64,000 nucleotides of DNA from Gallionella sp. (GTDB lineage: Bacteria; Pseudomonadota; Gammaproteobacteria; Burkholderiales; Gallionellaceae). Location: contig PLWV01000008.1 in the NCBI GenBank assembly GCA_003153155.1, forward strand, positions 170,233 through 234,232. Reading direction: 5' to 3'. Of this stretch, positions 22,233 through 29,853 are shown one piece after another. Position 1 is the stretch's first letter; each line of letters begins with the position of its first letter. The translations under genes were made by a program, and so were the position numbers. The notes under the pieces are model-generated. The model had not been told where the DNA came from and did not search any database. It saw only the letters and a list, made by a program, of their open reading frames with translations.

Positions 22233-22310
22233 TAAGGGACAAGGGACAAGGGAGAAGGGGAAACCTCAGAGCGGTTGTTGCCCTTCCCCTTTATCCCTTT
22301 CACCCTTCCC
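22233..22310. repeat. AAGGGACAAGGG inverted repeat overlapping the ftsK 3' end
   Basis: TAAGGGACAAGGGACAAGGG runs into GAGAAGGGG and is mirrored by CCCTTCCCCTTTATCCC...CACCCTTCCC. The right arm contains the final codons and stop of ftsK. The same sequence type occurs inside bioH (27113-27199) and at 53499-53517. Confidence 0.65.
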
Positions 22311-24767: not shown

Positions 24768-25643
24768 TCAATGCGCGCCTTTATTATCAAGCTGACCCAA
24801 GCGATCCAGATCGAGCTGCCTGGCCGCAACGCGCGCATCCGCCTGCGGCAAATATGGCACGATGCCCAGCAACGGCGCGGCGATCCGCTGCTGCAGCGCG
24901 GCAACGTTTTCTTCAACCGATGCCATGTCAGCTTCGACAACATTGGCCACCCAGCCCGCCAGCGTCAAGCCGCGCGCGGCGATCGCCCCCACCGTGAGCA
25001 GTGCGTGATTCAAACAACCCAGGCGCATGCCCACCACCAGGATGACCGGCAGGCCCAATTCCAGTACCAGATCGGCACTGTCCTGCTGCGCGTTAAGCGG
25101 CACACACAAGCCGCCCACACCCTCCACGATCACCACATCCGCCTGCGCAGCCAATTTTTGATAGGACTCTGTGATACGCGAAAATCGAATCTCGACCCCG
25201 GCGTGTTGTGCGGCGATGTGCGGCGCGATCGCCGGCAGGAAACAATACGGATTGATTAGCCCATAGCTCACCGCCACATTGCCTGCGGCGCGCAATTGCA
25301 GCGCATCCTCGTTCTGATCATCTGCATTGCAACCCGCCGCACCCGCAAGGAGTAGCTTTGCAGGCGACTTGCAACCAGCCAAAGGCTGGGCAAGATCGTC
25401 ACCGCCGATGGGTACACCCTCCGGGTGCGAGAACCTCTGCGAGGCCCCGTTGCCTGCGCCAAGACCGCCCGAAGGGCGAGCGTCTGGCGGCGTCCCCTTT
25501 ACGGGGGTGCGCAACGACCCTCCCGCAGCTACCGGCTTCATGCCGGCCACGCGCTTACCCTGCGCAGCAAAACCATGCAGCAAGGCGCAGCTGATCAGCG
25601 TCTTGCCGACATTGGTATCCGTCCCGGTGACAAAAAAATTCAT
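24768..25643 (-). CDS. bioD: BioD, dethiobiotin synthetase with a repeat-derived insert
   Basis: 291 aa against a usual 220-230. BioD closes the ureido ring of dethiobiotin with CO2 and ATP. P-loop TGTDTNVGKT (residues 7-16), KPVAAG, and the second motif VVIVEGVGGLCVPL are intact. Between KPVAAG and CNADDQNEDALQLR, where normal BioD is continuous, lie 63 extra residues (about 42-104) rich in Gly/Ala/Pro, encoded by hairpin-rich repeat DNA. Removing them restores 228 aa. Last gene of the bio operon; overlaps bioC by four bases. Confidence 0.93.
   Translation of the reverse strand: MNFFVTGTDTNVGKTLISCALLHGFAAQGKRVAGMKPVAAGGSLRTPVKGTPPDARPSGGLGAGNGASQRFSHPEGVPIGGDDLAQPLAGCKSPAKLLLAGAAGCNADDQNEDALQLRAAGNVAVSYGLINPYCFLPAIAPHIAAQHAGVEIRFSRITESYQKLAAQADVVIVEGVGGLCVPLNAQQDSADLVLELGLPVILVVGMRLGCLNHALLTVGAIAARGLTLAGWVANVVEADMASVEENVAALQQRIAAPLLGIVPYLPQADARVAARQLDLDRLGQLDNKGAH
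25332..25520. repeat. In-frame repeat insert within bioD (63 codons)
   Basis: About 189 bp with internal hairpins (CCGCCCGAAGGGCG, TTGCAACCAGCCAAAGGCTGGGCAAG). It interrupts the BioD motif region exactly between two residues normally adjacent; GCGGG stands near both edges and may be a target duplication. Open in the bioD frame throughout. Confidence 0.8.
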
Positions 25644-26512
25644 TTCAGTTTGAACGAGGTTTGAATGATAGCCGCACCGTCTTTAGTCGTGCGCGGCTGC
25701 GGCTTCCATGCGTGGCCGTACACCACTTCAAAAGTCGCGGGCAGCTTGCCGTTGCTGCGCAAGCGTTCGTAATTTTCCATGAGGCGTGCCCAGGCATTTT
25801 TTCCCATCAAACCCTGTCCGCGTCCTGCGGTGGCATTGTGCGCGCCTATCGTTTTGAGGTCTTGCAACACACCGCGCACATCATCATATGTCAGCGTCAA
25901 ATATTCCATATCCATCACCGGCTCGGCAAAGCCGCTGTGTACCAGCATGTCGCCGATGTCGTGCATGTCCGCGAAACGGTTGAGATGGTTGTGTTGGTCC
26001 ACACCATTGAACGCCCGCCGCAATTCTTTCAGCGTATCTGGGCCGAAGGTGCTGAACATCAACAGCCCGCCCACTTTAAGCACGCGATGCAGATCGACGA
26101 ACGTCGCCGGTAAATCATTGCACCACTGCACCGCCAGGTTCGACCACACCATCTCGACACTATTCGCCGCCAGTGGCAGGGTTTCGATATCACCGCACAC
26201 TAGCATTTGCTTTGTGCCGCCGAACAATTTTTGCCACCAGCCGGAACGTCCGCGCGCGGTCTGTAACATGCCGCTGGCGATGTCTAACGCGATCATCTGC
26301 GCAGCCGGATACCGTTGTGCCAACCGGCGCGTCCCCCAGCCGGTGCCGCTGCCGGCGTCCAGTATGCGCGAGGGTTGCAGCTTGATGTATTCCAGGCGTT
26401 CCAGCATCCGCGCGCACACTTCGCGCTGCAACACTGCCGCCGCGTCGTAGCTTGCCGCCGCGCGATTGAAAGCGCGGCGCATTAATTTTTTATCTATTGC
26501 AAATTCGTCCAT
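25640..26512 (-). CDS. bioC: BioC, malonyl-ACP O-methyltransferase
   Basis: 290 aa. Methylates malonyl-ACP so it can enter fatty acid synthesis as a pimelate precursor. SAM-binding motif ILDAGSGTGWGTRRLA, acidic IALDIASGML, and LPLAANSVEMVWSNLAVQWC are the class I methyltransferase motifs; LKVGGLLMFSTFGPDTLKELR is specific to BioC. Normal length with no insert, unlike its neighbours. Overlaps bioD by four bases and follows bioH by six. Confidence 0.95.
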   Translation of the reverse strand: MDEFAIDKKLMRRAFNRAAASYDAAAVLQREVCARMLERLEYIKLQPSRILDAGSGTGWGTRRLAQRYPAAQMIALDIASGMLQTARGRSGWWQKLFGGTKQMLVCGDIETLPLAANSVEMVWSNLAVQWCNDLPATFVDLHRVLKVGGLLMFSTFGPDTLKELRRAFNGVDQHNHLNRFADMHDIGDMLVHSGFAEPVMDMEYLTLTYDDVRGVLQDLKTIGAHNATAGRGQGLMGKNAWARLMENYERLRSNGKLPATFEVVYGHAWKPQPRTTKDGAAIIQTSFKLK

Positions 26513-26518
26513 GTGTTT

Positions 26519-27373
26519 CTACTCGCTCAGGAAGTTCACCACGTGTTCGACGAATTCTGCCGGGTGAGACAGAAATGGCGCGTGCGCCGCGCCCTTGATC
26601 ATCGCCAATCGTCCCTTGGGTGTCCGGCTGGCCAGAAATTGCGAGGCTTGTTGTGGAATCAGCGTATCGCGTTCGCCCGCCAACACCAGCGTGGCCTGCT
26701 TCACTTCTGCCAATGCACCGCGTAAATCGCTACCGCGCAAAATCTCCAGCCCCGATTGTAAAGCAGTCAAATCGGGCTCACCGCGACTGAACAATCCATC
26801 GCGCAATACCGCCAGTATTTCCCGTTCATGCTCGCTGCCGCGCATTTGCAATGACAGGAAGCGTTTCAGGGTCAGCGCGTAATTCTGCTGCAAATTGGCC
26901 GCGAACTCCTCCAGTATTTCCACGCTCAATGCATACTTCCAATCATCAAGACGCACAAAACATGGCGTGCTGGACACCAACACCAGACGCTCTACTTGTT
27001 GCGGATGGCGCAACGCCCAGCGCAATGCCACCTGCCCGCCCAGCGACCAACCGCATACGTTGAGCGGCACATCGAACTGCGCGGATAGCTCATCGACGAT
27101 GGCATCCAGTGCGAAGGTTAAAGGTTCAAGGTTCAAGGAAAAAGCCAAGTCTTGCCCGTTGCCCCTTACCCATTGTCCCTTGCGCCTTTCATTTTTGACG
27201 CTGTAGCCATGCCCTGGCAAATCCACCGCCATCACGTGAAAATTCTGCGCCAGTTTTTCCGCGACTCCGCCCCACATGCCGCCGTGCATACCCCAGCCGT
27301 GGATCAGCAACAGGGGCGTGCCGCCGCCACCCTTCCCCGCATATTCATAATGATCAACGTGCAAGACGGTCAT
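26519..27373 (-). CDS. bioH: BioH, pimeloyl-ACP methyl ester esterase with a repeat-derived insert
   Basis: 284 aa; BioH is usually about 255. Alpha/beta hydrolase that frees pimeloyl-ACP from its methyl ester. Oxyanion LIHGWGMHGGMW, nucleophile elbow GWSLGGQ, late Asp in LVLAGERDTLIP and His in GAAHAPFLSHP are all present. After DLPGHGYS, about 29 extra residues (59-87, KNERRKGQWVRG... to LEPLTF) interrupt the chain before the ALDAIVDELSAQ helix. They are encoded by the AAGGGACAAGGG repeat found elsewhere in intergenic gaps. Confidence 0.93.
   Translation of the reverse strand: MTVLHVDHYEYAGKGGGGTPLLLIHGWGMHGGMWGGVAEKLAQNFHVMAVDLPGHGYSVKNERRKGQWVRGNGQDLAFSLNLEPLTFALDAIVDELSAQFDVPLNVCGWSLGGQVALRWALRHPQQVERLVLVSSTPCFVRLDDWKYALSVEILEEFAANLQQNYALTLKRFLSLQMRGSEHEREILAVLRDGLFSRGEPDLTALQSGLEILRGSDLRGALAEVKQATLVLAGERDTLIPQQASQFLASRTPKGRLAMIKGAAHAPFLSHPAEFVEHVVNFLSE
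27113..27199. repeat. In-frame repeat insert within bioH (29 codons)
   Basis: On the coding strand it reads GGCGCAAGGGACAATGGGTA and ends in CTTGAACCTTGAACCTTTAA. It resembles the repeats at 22233-22310 and 53499-53517. It is open in the bioH frame and lies between the fourth strand and the following helix of the hydrolase. Confidence 0.75.
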
Positions 27374-27471
27374 TTAGTACTCCTACAGTTGAGGCCGCCA
27401 TGCACGTTTCCCTCTCCTCAATCCTCTCCCGCAAGCGGGCGAGGAAGCAAACGCATCGCTACGCGAATTTC

Positions 27472-28746
27472 TCATCCCTGTGCAAGCTCATGCAGGGATT
27501 CGAGCAAACGTGTCACATCCGCTGCGCGATGTGCGGCAGACAAGGTGATGCGCAAGCGCGCCGTGCCCTGGGGCACGGTGGGCGGACGAATCGCCGCGAC
27601 CCAGATGCCGCGTTCACGCAATCCGGCACTCAGATTCAACGCCGCGTGATTGCCGCCAACCAGCAAGGGTTGTATCGCCGTTGCAGATGGCATCACAGAC
27701 CACGGCAGGCTGCGCAACCCGCTGCGCAATTGCGCGATCAGGCGTTGCAGATGGTCGCGCAGTTCATCACCATTTGCTATCAGTCGCAGACTCTCCAGCA
27801 GCGCGCTCGCCAGTGCGGGCGGTGTGGCAGTCGTGTAAACATAGCTGCGCGCATGGTTGATGAGCGTATCGATCACCACCTGTTCCGCCGCGACGAACGC
27901 CCCGAACACCCCCGCCGCTTTGCCCAGTGTCGCCATGCAGATGACGCGTTTAGATGCGATGCCGAAATGCGCCAGTGAGCCGCGTCCCTGTTCACCCAAC
28001 ACGCCGAAACCGTGCGCGTCGTCGATCAGCAGCCACGCATCATGTTGTTCGCATAACGCCAGCAATTCCGGCAACGGCGCGAGATCGCCGTCCATACTGA
28101 ATACCGCGTCGGTGATGACAAGTTTGCGCCCACATTTAACATGAGACTCGCGCAGCGAGACCCTATCCCTCTCCCCCTCCGGGGGAGAGCTGGAGAGAGG
28201 GAAACGGGCATGGCGGGATTCAACATCAGGGACGGCATCTTTGCCATGCCCGTTGGCTTGTTCCAGCAGTTTCGCCAATTGGGTCATGTCATTGTGGCGG
28301 TAGCGCTTCACTGTGGCGCGCGACAGCTGCATCGCATCGTTCAGCGAAGCGTGATTGAACTTGTCGGCAAACACCGTATCGCCCTTGCCAACCAGTGCCT
28401 GCACAACGCCCAGATTCGCCATATATCCGGTGGAGAACAACAGTGCGGCGGGTTTACACACGAAGGCCGCAAGTTCATTTTCCAACTGATGGTGCGTTGC
28501 GCCATGCCCGCTCACCAGATGCGCCGCGCCTGCACCCACGCCATGTTGCTGCGCGCCTTGTTGTAGCGCGGCGATGAGCTGCGGATGGTTGGCCAGACCC
28601 AGATAATCGTTGCTGCAGAATGACAAATAGGATTTGCCGTCCACCATGGTGTGCGGCGCCTGCGGGCTTTGCAGTGTGTGCCGATGACGCAGCAACCCCA
28701 GTGAAGCGCGTTCGTTCAGTTCGGATTGAAGTGCGGAAAATGGCAT
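27472..28746 (-). CDS. bioF: BioF, 8-amino-7-oxononanoate synthase with a repeat-derived insert
   Basis: 424 aa; the family norm is about 385. PLP enzyme joining pimeloyl-ACP and alanine. Visible are SFCSNDYLGLANHP, GHGATHHQLENELA, the DDAHGFGVLG aspartate motif and, near the PLP lysine, VICMATLGKAAGVFGAF. Between LLEQAN and GRKLVITDAVFSMDG an extra 39 residues (about 166-204) are encoded by a hairpin repeat. Removal gives 385 aa. Preceded by bioB and followed 98 bases later by bioH. Confidence 0.94.
   Translation of the reverse strand: MPFSALQSELNERASLGLLRHRHTLQSPQAPHTMVDGKSYLSFCSNDYLGLANHPQLIAALQQGAQQHGVGAGAAHLVSGHGATHHQLENELAAFVCKPAALLFSTGYMANLGVVQALVGKGDTVFADKFNHASLNDAMQLSRATVKRYRHNDMTQLAKLLEQANGHGKDAVPDVESRHARFPLSSSPPEGERDRVSLRESHVKCGRKLVITDAVFSMDGDLAPLPELLALCEQHDAWLLIDDAHGFGVLGEQGRGSLAHFGIASKRVICMATLGKAAGVFGAFVAAEQVVIDTLINHARSYVYTTATPPALASALLESLRLIANGDELRDHLQRLIAQLRSGLRSLPWSVMPSATAIQPLLVGGNHAALNLSAGLRERGIWVAAIRPPTVPQGTARLRITLSAAHRAADVTRLLESLHELAQG
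28135..28251. repeat. In-frame repeat insert within bioF (39 codons)
   Basis: Contains ACGGGCATGGC mirrored by GCCATGCCCGT and CTCTCCCCCTCCGGGGGAGAG, the hairpin type common in this window's intergenic gaps (59064-59099, 53575-53640). The length is divisible by three and no stop appears in the bioF frame. Confidence 0.8.
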
Positions 28747-28762: not shown

Positions 28763-28840
28763 GTAGGAGCGGATTCATCCGCGATTAACTTTTGTCGCGG
28801 TTAAAACCTGTCCTGAGCCTGTCGAAGGGGCCGCTCCCAC
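28763..28840. repeat. GTAGGAGCGG / CCGCTCCCAC hairpin with a TCCTGAGCCTGTCGAAGG unit
   Basis: Intergenic repeat between bioB and bioF. Outer arms GTAGGAGCGG and CCGCTCCCAC, a nested ATCCGCG/CGCGGTT pair, and one CCTGTCCTGAGCCTGTCGAA unit. The unit recurs inside mshN (31636-31735 and 31861-31889). Confidence 0.7.
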
Positions 28841-28845
28841 CTGCG

Positions 28846-29853
28846 TCATTTTTTATCGGCAAACGGATACATACCCAGCTTGTCCAGCAAGGCGCGATCC
28901 TTTTCAGCATCCGGATTGCCGGTGGTCAGCAATTGCTCGCCATAGAAAATCGAGTTCGCGCCGGCGAGAAAACACAATGCCTGTATCGCGTCCGACATCT
29001 GCTGGCGTCCTGCCGACAGTCGCACGCGCGCAGTCGGCATGGTGATGCGCGCCACCGCGATGGTGCGCACAAAATCCAGCGGGTCGAGATCTTCGGTTTG
29101 CGCAAGTGGCGTGCCTTCGACTTTGACCAGATTGTTGATCGGCACGCTTTCAGGATAAGGTTCGAGATTGGCCAGTTGCGCGACCAAACCCGCGCGCTGC
29201 GTGAGGTTCTCGCCCATTCCGACGATGCCGCCGCTGCATACATGCATCCCCGCTTTGCGCACACGCTCCAAGGTATCCAAGCGATCCTGGTAATCGCGCG
29301 TGCTGATGATGTCGCCGTAAAATTCCGGCGAGGTATCCAGATTGTGGTTGTAGTAATCCAAGCCGGCGGCACGCAATTGTTCTGTCTGTTTCTCATTCAA
29401 CATGCCCAGCGTGGCGCAGGTTTCCATGCCCAAACCGCGCACCGCCTTGACCATTTCCACCACGCTGGCCATATCCTCTTCGCTGGGTTCGCGCCACGCC
29501 GCACCCATGCAGAAACGGTCCGCGCCGCTTTGCTGTGCGGCACGCGCGGCGGCGACCACCACGTCCACATCCAGCATTTTCTGATTCTCCACGCCCGTCG
29601 AATGGAACGCCGATTGCGGACAATAGCCACAGTCCTCCGAACAGCCGCCGGTCTTGATCGACAACAAAGTGGAAAGCTGCACCGCGTTCGGATCGAAATT
29701 CTCGCGGTGCACTTGCTGCGCGCGAAACAACAAATCGGCAAACGGCAGTTTGAACAAGGCTTCGACTTCGGCCACGCTCCAGCGTTGCGGAGTAGCGGGT
29801 CGTTTGCCAGATTGATTGACAGTACGGATGAATTCGATAGTTTGGGTGTTCAT
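28846..29853 (-). CDS. bioB: BioB, biotin synthase
   Basis: 335 aa, standard length. Radical-SAM enzyme inserting sulfur into dethiobiotin. The 4Fe-4S Cys triad is in [11 protein letters not shown], followed by CMGAAWREP and the 2Fe-2S cysteines in [20 protein letters not shown]; the conserved Arg region [10 protein letters not shown] binds that cluster. First gene of the operon bioB-F-H-C-D and the only one besides bioC without a repeat insert. Confidence 0.97.

Follow-up and report, generated by a model that had tools for sequence, protein, structure and literature searches.

Dispersed hairpin repeats lie in frame in the biotin operon and other core enzyme genes of a Gallionella genome

The biotin operon and its in-frame inserts

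Three genes of a biotin operon in Gallionella sp. (GenBank assembly GCA_003153155.1, 2.75 Mb) contain additional in-frame segments. The operon lies in the window, a stretch of 64,000 nucleotides on contig C26 (PLWV01000008.1), and is arranged bioB-bioF-bioH-bioC-bioD on the minus strand; coordinates below are those of the window. All five genes are present, with the best NCBIfam match of each protein (bioD, BioC, bioH, bioF and bioB) above the cut-off, and BioD, BioF and BioH each matched their model in two stretches. An earlier note, made from the sequence alone, had proposed that bioD, bioF and bioH carry translated repeat inserts of 63, 39 and 29 codons. Protein alignments with 27 to 33 genomes of the same genus bore out the extra segments in BioD and BioF and changed the picture for BioH.

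The bioD gene (24768..25643, minus strand) encodes 291 amino acids (aa). Both NCBIfam TIGR00347 and the solved structure PDB 1dts aligned with the product as two pieces flanking an insert of 189 bp (25341..25529, minus strand; aa 39-101). The 63 extra residues directly follow the KPVAAG motif and were missing in 32/32 aligned relatives; a different insert, made of 16 residues, was found at this place in relative L100 (genome G018). The BioD insert is a mosaic of at least three different repeats, pieces 15-83, 82-127 and 124-195 of the query each matching a different set of dispersed copies. At least 20 other places of the same genome matched the query, mostly to pieces of it, a lower bound since 40 of the 63 candidates were scored. 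An AlphaFold model of BioD, confident over most of the enzyme, gave a predicted local distance difference test (pLDDT) score below 50 over aa 42-102 and placed the insert in a loop between strand 32-35 and helix 112-120.

The bioF gene (27472..28746, minus strand; 424 aa) likewise matched TIGR00858 in two stretches and PDB 5jay as two pieces. It is interrupted by an element of 120 bp (28135..28254, minus strand; AACGGGCATGGC ... GTTAAA), which adds a net 39 codons. This insert was common to 2 of 33 relatives only (L071 and L072, from genomes G030 and G029), and L073 displayed a different 7-aa addition at the same place. Among the best 120 of 7797 homologue hits, BioF proteins that are 96-97% identical to the window protein outside the insert were found without it. 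The bioF-type element was detected at 14 further places in the genome; several copies span its whole length and end similarly (AACGGGCATGGC and GTTAA(A)), and several have inverted ends (AACG.../...CGTTAAA). It has three open frames, and copies in genes that retain the left end used the same frame (3/3). The AlphaFold model of BioF, confident over most of the enzyme, had pLDDT values below 50 at aa 169-180 and 182-203 (also at 75-79), with the insert in a loop between helix 154-164 and strand 208-213.

The site occupied in BioF also hosts other sequences. The BioF proteins P0002 and P0003 carry the same insert with a further 20-residue repeat nested inside it, and nesting of elements was also seen at L033. 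Other BioF proteins have unrelated inserts at this place (site 1), with at least four insert types among the homologues listed. A second site, near window residue 260, contains inserts of 10-46 residues in 5/33 relatives (L097, L100, L101, L102 and L103), several of them hairpin-like.

The product of bioH (26519..27373, minus strand; 284 aa) aligned with a solved chain on both sides of an enlarged loop (27110..27199, minus strand), located between VDLPGHGYS and LDAIVDEL. The loop has 30 codons and contains two opposed arrays of 7-bp units (27114-27138 and 27151-27188). Because the shortest relatives (L071, L073 and L088) already have 7-8 codons at this position, the net excess is about 22 codons rather than the 29 proposed; the sizes proposed for BioD and BioF were confirmed. 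Both the length and the sequence of the BioH loop are variable throughout the genus. It reaches at least 30 nt in 31/34 genes (window included), 20 of these 31 loops gave a fold z below -2 against 100 mononucleotide shuffles per loop, and the sequence of many changes between genomes. Many of these inserts are arrays of 7-bp units in opposed orientation; those of L091-L093, L075, L078 and L103 are structured palindromes without 7-bp arrays, some of them alike between genomes. All three repeat types had been said to recur elsewhere: this is true by sequence for the BioD and BioF inserts, and for BioH the type alone recurs between genes. One example at 22234-22307, where AAGGGAC units stand opposite CCCTTTAA units, lies beside a gene that we take to be ftsK-like.

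The two remaining genes, bioC (25640..26512) and bioB (28846..29853), both on the minus strand and identified by NCBIfam match and alignment, had been described as free of inserts, and no insert of 8 aa or more was flagged in 33 (window included) and 28 aligned rows, respectively, chain ends not counted. BioD and BioF of the window keep the residues that do not vary among their aligned relatives, in line with the earlier view that the catalytic motifs are intact; which of these residues are catalytic is our assumption. Two short elements lie between the genes on the plus strand: a partial bioF-type element (27395..27444, 78% over 50 bases) between bioF and bioH, and a GTCCTGAGCCTGTCGAAGGG hairpin (28810..28829) between bioB and bioF, to which a 24-bp hairpin inside purD of genome G013 is related. 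Assembly error was rejected because independent records (P0002-P0005, G029 and G030) also contain the BioF insert and inserts are found across many genomes. The possibility that the inserts are a conserved part of each family was rejected on the basis of the 32-33 relatives and of the solved structures aligning in two pieces.

In-frame repeats in other genes and the 27-bp element

The presence of in-frame repeats is not special to the biotin operon. Ten element probes marked 64 regions in a sample of 434 kb of the genome (391 genes). Seventeen of these regions were inside genes (16 genes, only partly checked against relatives), compared with about 52 expected if placement were uniform. Since elements are rarer in genes than uniform placing predicts, purging appears to be strong. 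The bio genes nevertheless exceed the sampled average, with 3/5 genes affected compared with 14/386 (Fisher p 0.0007), although the operon was chosen for its inserts and bioH was counted with no probe covering it. In-frame repeats were found in the genes for PurD, IspG, a UbiH-type hydroxylase, pyruvate dehydrogenase E2, PriA, RNase E and an RlmN-type methyltransferase (NCBIfam names), in the SahH gene (named via a PDB match) and in the PBP4 gene, where the repeat is outside the part matched by the family model. The repeat piece P1 was in the same frame in 5/5 genes with coding sequence on both sides. In an ortholog comparison, 61 of the 391 genes had a partner in 320 kb of genome G007 and 26 in 80 kb of G027; beyond bioD, bioF and bioH, additional segments of 17 and 21 aa, which were not shown to be repeats, were seen in two genes, and three genes were without segments present in a relative.

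The clearest insertions involve a 27-bp element, KCCGAARAACTTTTGGCCGGGCACCCG, found in 84 copies at up to 3 mismatches in this genome, when the reversed-pattern control gave none. It occurs in 28/37 genomes of the genus (this one included) and in 0/24 genomes of other genera. A degenerate pattern recovered 89 copies here, 25 in G016 and 0-11 in the other 35 genomes of the genus. G016 is thus a second genome in which this element has been amplified.

Exact empty sites were identified for two genes. In purD, the 27 bp stand between CTG and TCCGAC, and L283 reads CTGTCCGAC, as do most relatives similarly, which indicates a clean 27-bp insertion (30 aligned rows, 21 of them same-genus relatives; 30 of 36 matching genomes gave the locus). 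In the SahH gene, the element stands between ACC and AAGGAC, the empty site reading ACCAAGGAC in L390 and L409; the insertion was missing in 24/24 parsed relatives and in PDB 3d64 (33/37 genomes matched; 5/30 loci, L387, L389, L400, L404 and L412, could not be parsed). TCCG is present on both sides of the element in PurD, but not in SahH. The purD gene of G003, only 80% identical to that of the window genome, contains a diverged copy of the 27-bp element at exactly this base, and most relatives between the two are without it; PurD of G013, G016 and G019 has a 24-bp insert about eight codons further on, and that of G007 five other extra residues.

The hairpin of the element is conserved. Across 83 copies the first stem pair (positions 1-15) is CG in 58, AT in 22, GC in one and another combination in two, making it a compensating pair. 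The downstream side carries a motif: position +4 is G in 82/83 copies and in 14/14 examined among the 25 copies of G016, and position +5 is A in 67/83. None of the six frames of the element contains a stop codon. Despite this freedom, a single frame, mostly read as (S/A/D)EKLLAGHP, is used by 13 of the 18 copies that are flanked by coding sequence at both ends (P about 2e-6 under equal frames), and 12 of these 13 have Asp or Glu two residues on. Among 30 repeat loci read, one (L244) failed orientation and was dropped.

Two further placements were recorded. At L249 (C29:55745-55824), three elements in exact tandem with a period of 27 lie at the C-terminus of an open frame, in which SEKLLAGHP is repeated. 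At L371 (1501-1526; C30:46400-46425), a variant is placed close to the N-terminus encoded by a putative valyl-tRNA synthetase gene, a name we presume from a motif.

Insertion, exchange and other possible origins of the inserts

Several families of short hairpin repeats are dispersed in this genome, and we consider it likely that the copies lying in frame in core enzyme genes (such as those for BioD, BioF, PurD and SahH) were inserted as small non-autonomous mobile elements of the kind of repetitive extragenic palindromes (REPs). The earlier reading of different insert types settled in tolerant loops, resembling Rickettsia palindromic elements (RPEs), is thereby maintained. A protein acting in trans, perhaps a REP-associated tyrosine transposase (RAYT) of the HUH type, would move the elements, in the form of single-stranded hairpins, to short target motifs. 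Selection would remove any insertion that disrupts the frame or the folded core, and those with a length of 3n and an open frame would be kept in floppy loops. The inserts would be tolerated because they only lengthen a floppy surface loop; the peptides are probably translated and near-neutral, and the models predict them to be disordered. Copies of the 27-bp element lie directly upstream of NNNG(A/G), where GA mostly forms the start of an Asp or Glu codon in genes, and the frame (S/A/D)-EKLLAGHP-x-(D/E) would be fixed by the phase of the GA target together with selection. The alternative first offered, between frequent invasion and a mechanism that favours entry in frame, can be made more precise: purging is strong (17/64), and the 27-bp element has a target-linked frame.

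That a RAYT transposase mobilises the elements is plausible, but hardly anything supports it. Three Y1_Tnp genes (PF01797, RAYT-type) were identified in the genome, and one of them (L341, contig C3; Y1_Tnp at locus 1501-1833) has a P1-type repeat just upstream (1329-1390). None of the probe repeats was found in the flanks of the other two (L342 and L343), and no copy of the 27-bp or the bioF-type element within 1.5-kb flanks of any of the three.

A number of points weigh against insertion as mobile elements. No transposition event was observed, target-site duplications were not demonstrated, and neither the 27-bp nor the bioF-type element could be linked to a transposase, a single P1 copy next to a single RAYT gene being thin evidence. 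Five of the 18 coding placements of the 27-bp element are in other frames, some of these possibly wrong, and in priA a partial copy of the hairpin is read on the opposite strand. The BioH insert had no second copy in the genome by BLAST at E<=0.01 and its own loop gave a fold z of -1.8 only; the z values rest on mononucleotide shuffles. Copy dispersal was established for inserts of the window genome, and genes in the sample were called with our own hexamer caller. Finally, the history of the BioF insert is ambiguous.

A distinct possibility is that each insert originated in one or a few events and has since spread among strains through homologous recombination on short tracts, or through gene conversion from other genomic copies, in place of repeated transposition into one site. 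Between the window and G030, the bioF core differs at 132 synonymous and 75 nonsynonymous sites (proportions pS 0.46 and pN 0.09), compared with 10/117 sites in the insert, nine nonsynonymous and one synonymous (pS 0.03), and normal divergence is back on both flanks. Because the insert is far less diverged than the surrounding gene, it must postdate by far the separation of the two genes. Simple inheritance from a common ancestor is opposed by the same values (pS 0.03 versus 0.46). The junction codon TGT is common to the window and L071 (G030), and P0003, P0004 and P0005 have a Cys at the junction. The BioF insert thus either entered the two genes independently or passed between them on a short tract. 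The TGT junction found in both speaks more for exchange; taken with the 10/117 differences, it fits exchange between strains as well as repeated insertion. The distribution is patchy: a quick tree of 153 rows gave 17 state changes at BioF site 1, although the branches with strong support require no more than 3 for this insert. A single clade of the nine insert-bearing rows was rejected only marginally (approximately unbiased test, p-AU 0.0458; string matching served to assign the insert states, and the nine rows include two identical pairs). Exchange of one insert does not account for the unrelated inserts at the same sites, nor does it fit easily with the diverged 27-bp copy of G003 at the same base of PurD.

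Formation of the hairpins in place, by template switching and slippage at a length-tolerant loop, would apply above all to the heptamer arrays of BioH. The opposed 7-bp units of many BioH inserts, and the lack of a dispersed homologue for the window copy, are what such an origin would give. As a general explanation we regard it as unlikely, given the many dispersed homologues of the BioD, BioF and 27-bp inserts and the BioH palindromes without 7-bp arrays, some of which recur between genomes.

Very little speaks for a selected function, in which mRNA hairpins would set the expression of the bio operon or the peptide segments would have a role. Inserts affect 3/5 genes of one operon, and the sites are genus-wide hot spots. 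Against this, sequence and presence vary among close relatives, the ratio of nonsynonymous to synonymous changes is 9/1 in the BioF insert versus 75/132 in the core, the inserts are predicted to be disordered, and unrelated genes carry repeats too. We therefore hold such a function to be improbable.

Some genomes contain byps, segments skipped by ribosomes. The inserts form hairpins and lie in core enzymes, as might be expected if skipping, or removal from the RNA, restored the native protein. Skipped segments need not be stop-free or a multiple of three, and all the inserts read are both, although detection through open reading frames favours this. No stop was present inside any bioF match listed, and the pieces of split genes gave the same open frame where both were listed. 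Skipping or removal of this kind is hardly credible for these inserts.

Relation to known repeats and significance

The general phenomenon has precedents. Di Nocera et al. (2013) describe, in the main text of PMC3733652, intragenic REPs of the GTAG and CGTC families, dispersed palindromes of 20-40 bp also present in conserved genes, of which dimers and groups encode 20-30 aa or more. In-frame REPs are reported there for several genomes, including O. terrae and Thauera, and in recB of two Xanthomonas species a REP is found at nearly the same position. Reports of in-frame REPs thus already existed outside Rickettsia. The names Gallionella and Sideroxydans are absent from that main text (supplements were outside the search), and no report of such repeats in Gallionella was found in the literature searched, full texts of Gallionella papers being outside its scope.

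As a multicopy palindrome of this size, the 27-bp element resembles REPs, and some BioH inserts of relatives begin with GTAG at the foot of the hairpin (L075, L103 and L091). Unlike REPs, however, the 27-bp element has two hairpins instead of one and a near-strict downstream NNNGR. A GTAG tag was present in 0/83 copies, and the unpaired tag and single stem-loop end that define the GTAG/CGTC super-family were not found; a CGTC-type tag (GACG, GACA or GAGG, that is, CGTC, TGTC or CCTC reversed) occurs in 33/83, three bases from the hairpin.

Two reviews, PMC2229807 and PMC10969869, describe RPEs as palindromic repeats in frame in unrelated metabolic genes, with a conserved coded peptide, and report one RPE-bearing guanylate kinase as translated and active. 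The Gallionella repeats share their palindromic nature and their position in frame within unrelated conserved metabolic genes, in a preferred frame for the 27-bp element. In contrast to RPEs, given there as 105-150 bp, they measure 24-27, 66 or about 120 bp or form heptamer arrays, nest, and recurrently use the same loops. The bioF-type element, with about 120 bp, inverted ends and three open frames, is also similar to miniature inverted-repeat transposable elements as outlined in PMC2229807 (Correia/NEMIS and ERIC); no target duplication was shown for it.

Because they work like RPEs and the intragenic REPs of 2013, the repeats are of a known kind. Compared with what these texts describe, the new features are the scale, the genus-wide recurrence of unrelated elements in the same enzyme loops, their nesting within proteins and the match between target motif and codon phase. 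More tentatively, and with considerable doubt, the Gallionella elements may be adapted to life inside proteins: with its 27 bp, a multiple of three, its six open frames and its rule of landing three bases before GA, the 27-bp element would be read in one frame in surface loops and expose EKLLAGHP to solvent, and the loops would be a shared, re-used habitat in which unrelated elements nest without breaking the frame.

With dozens of genomes at hand, Gallionella allows occupied sites of in-frame selfish repeats to be set against empty ones. Such comparisons could show by what route these repeats enter coding frames, whether the choice of target is by itself enough to lock the frame, and how much extra length the loops of essential enzymes can take. 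The data also carry a warning: 'variable loops' and odd low-confidence segments in proteins of this kind can be translated repeats.

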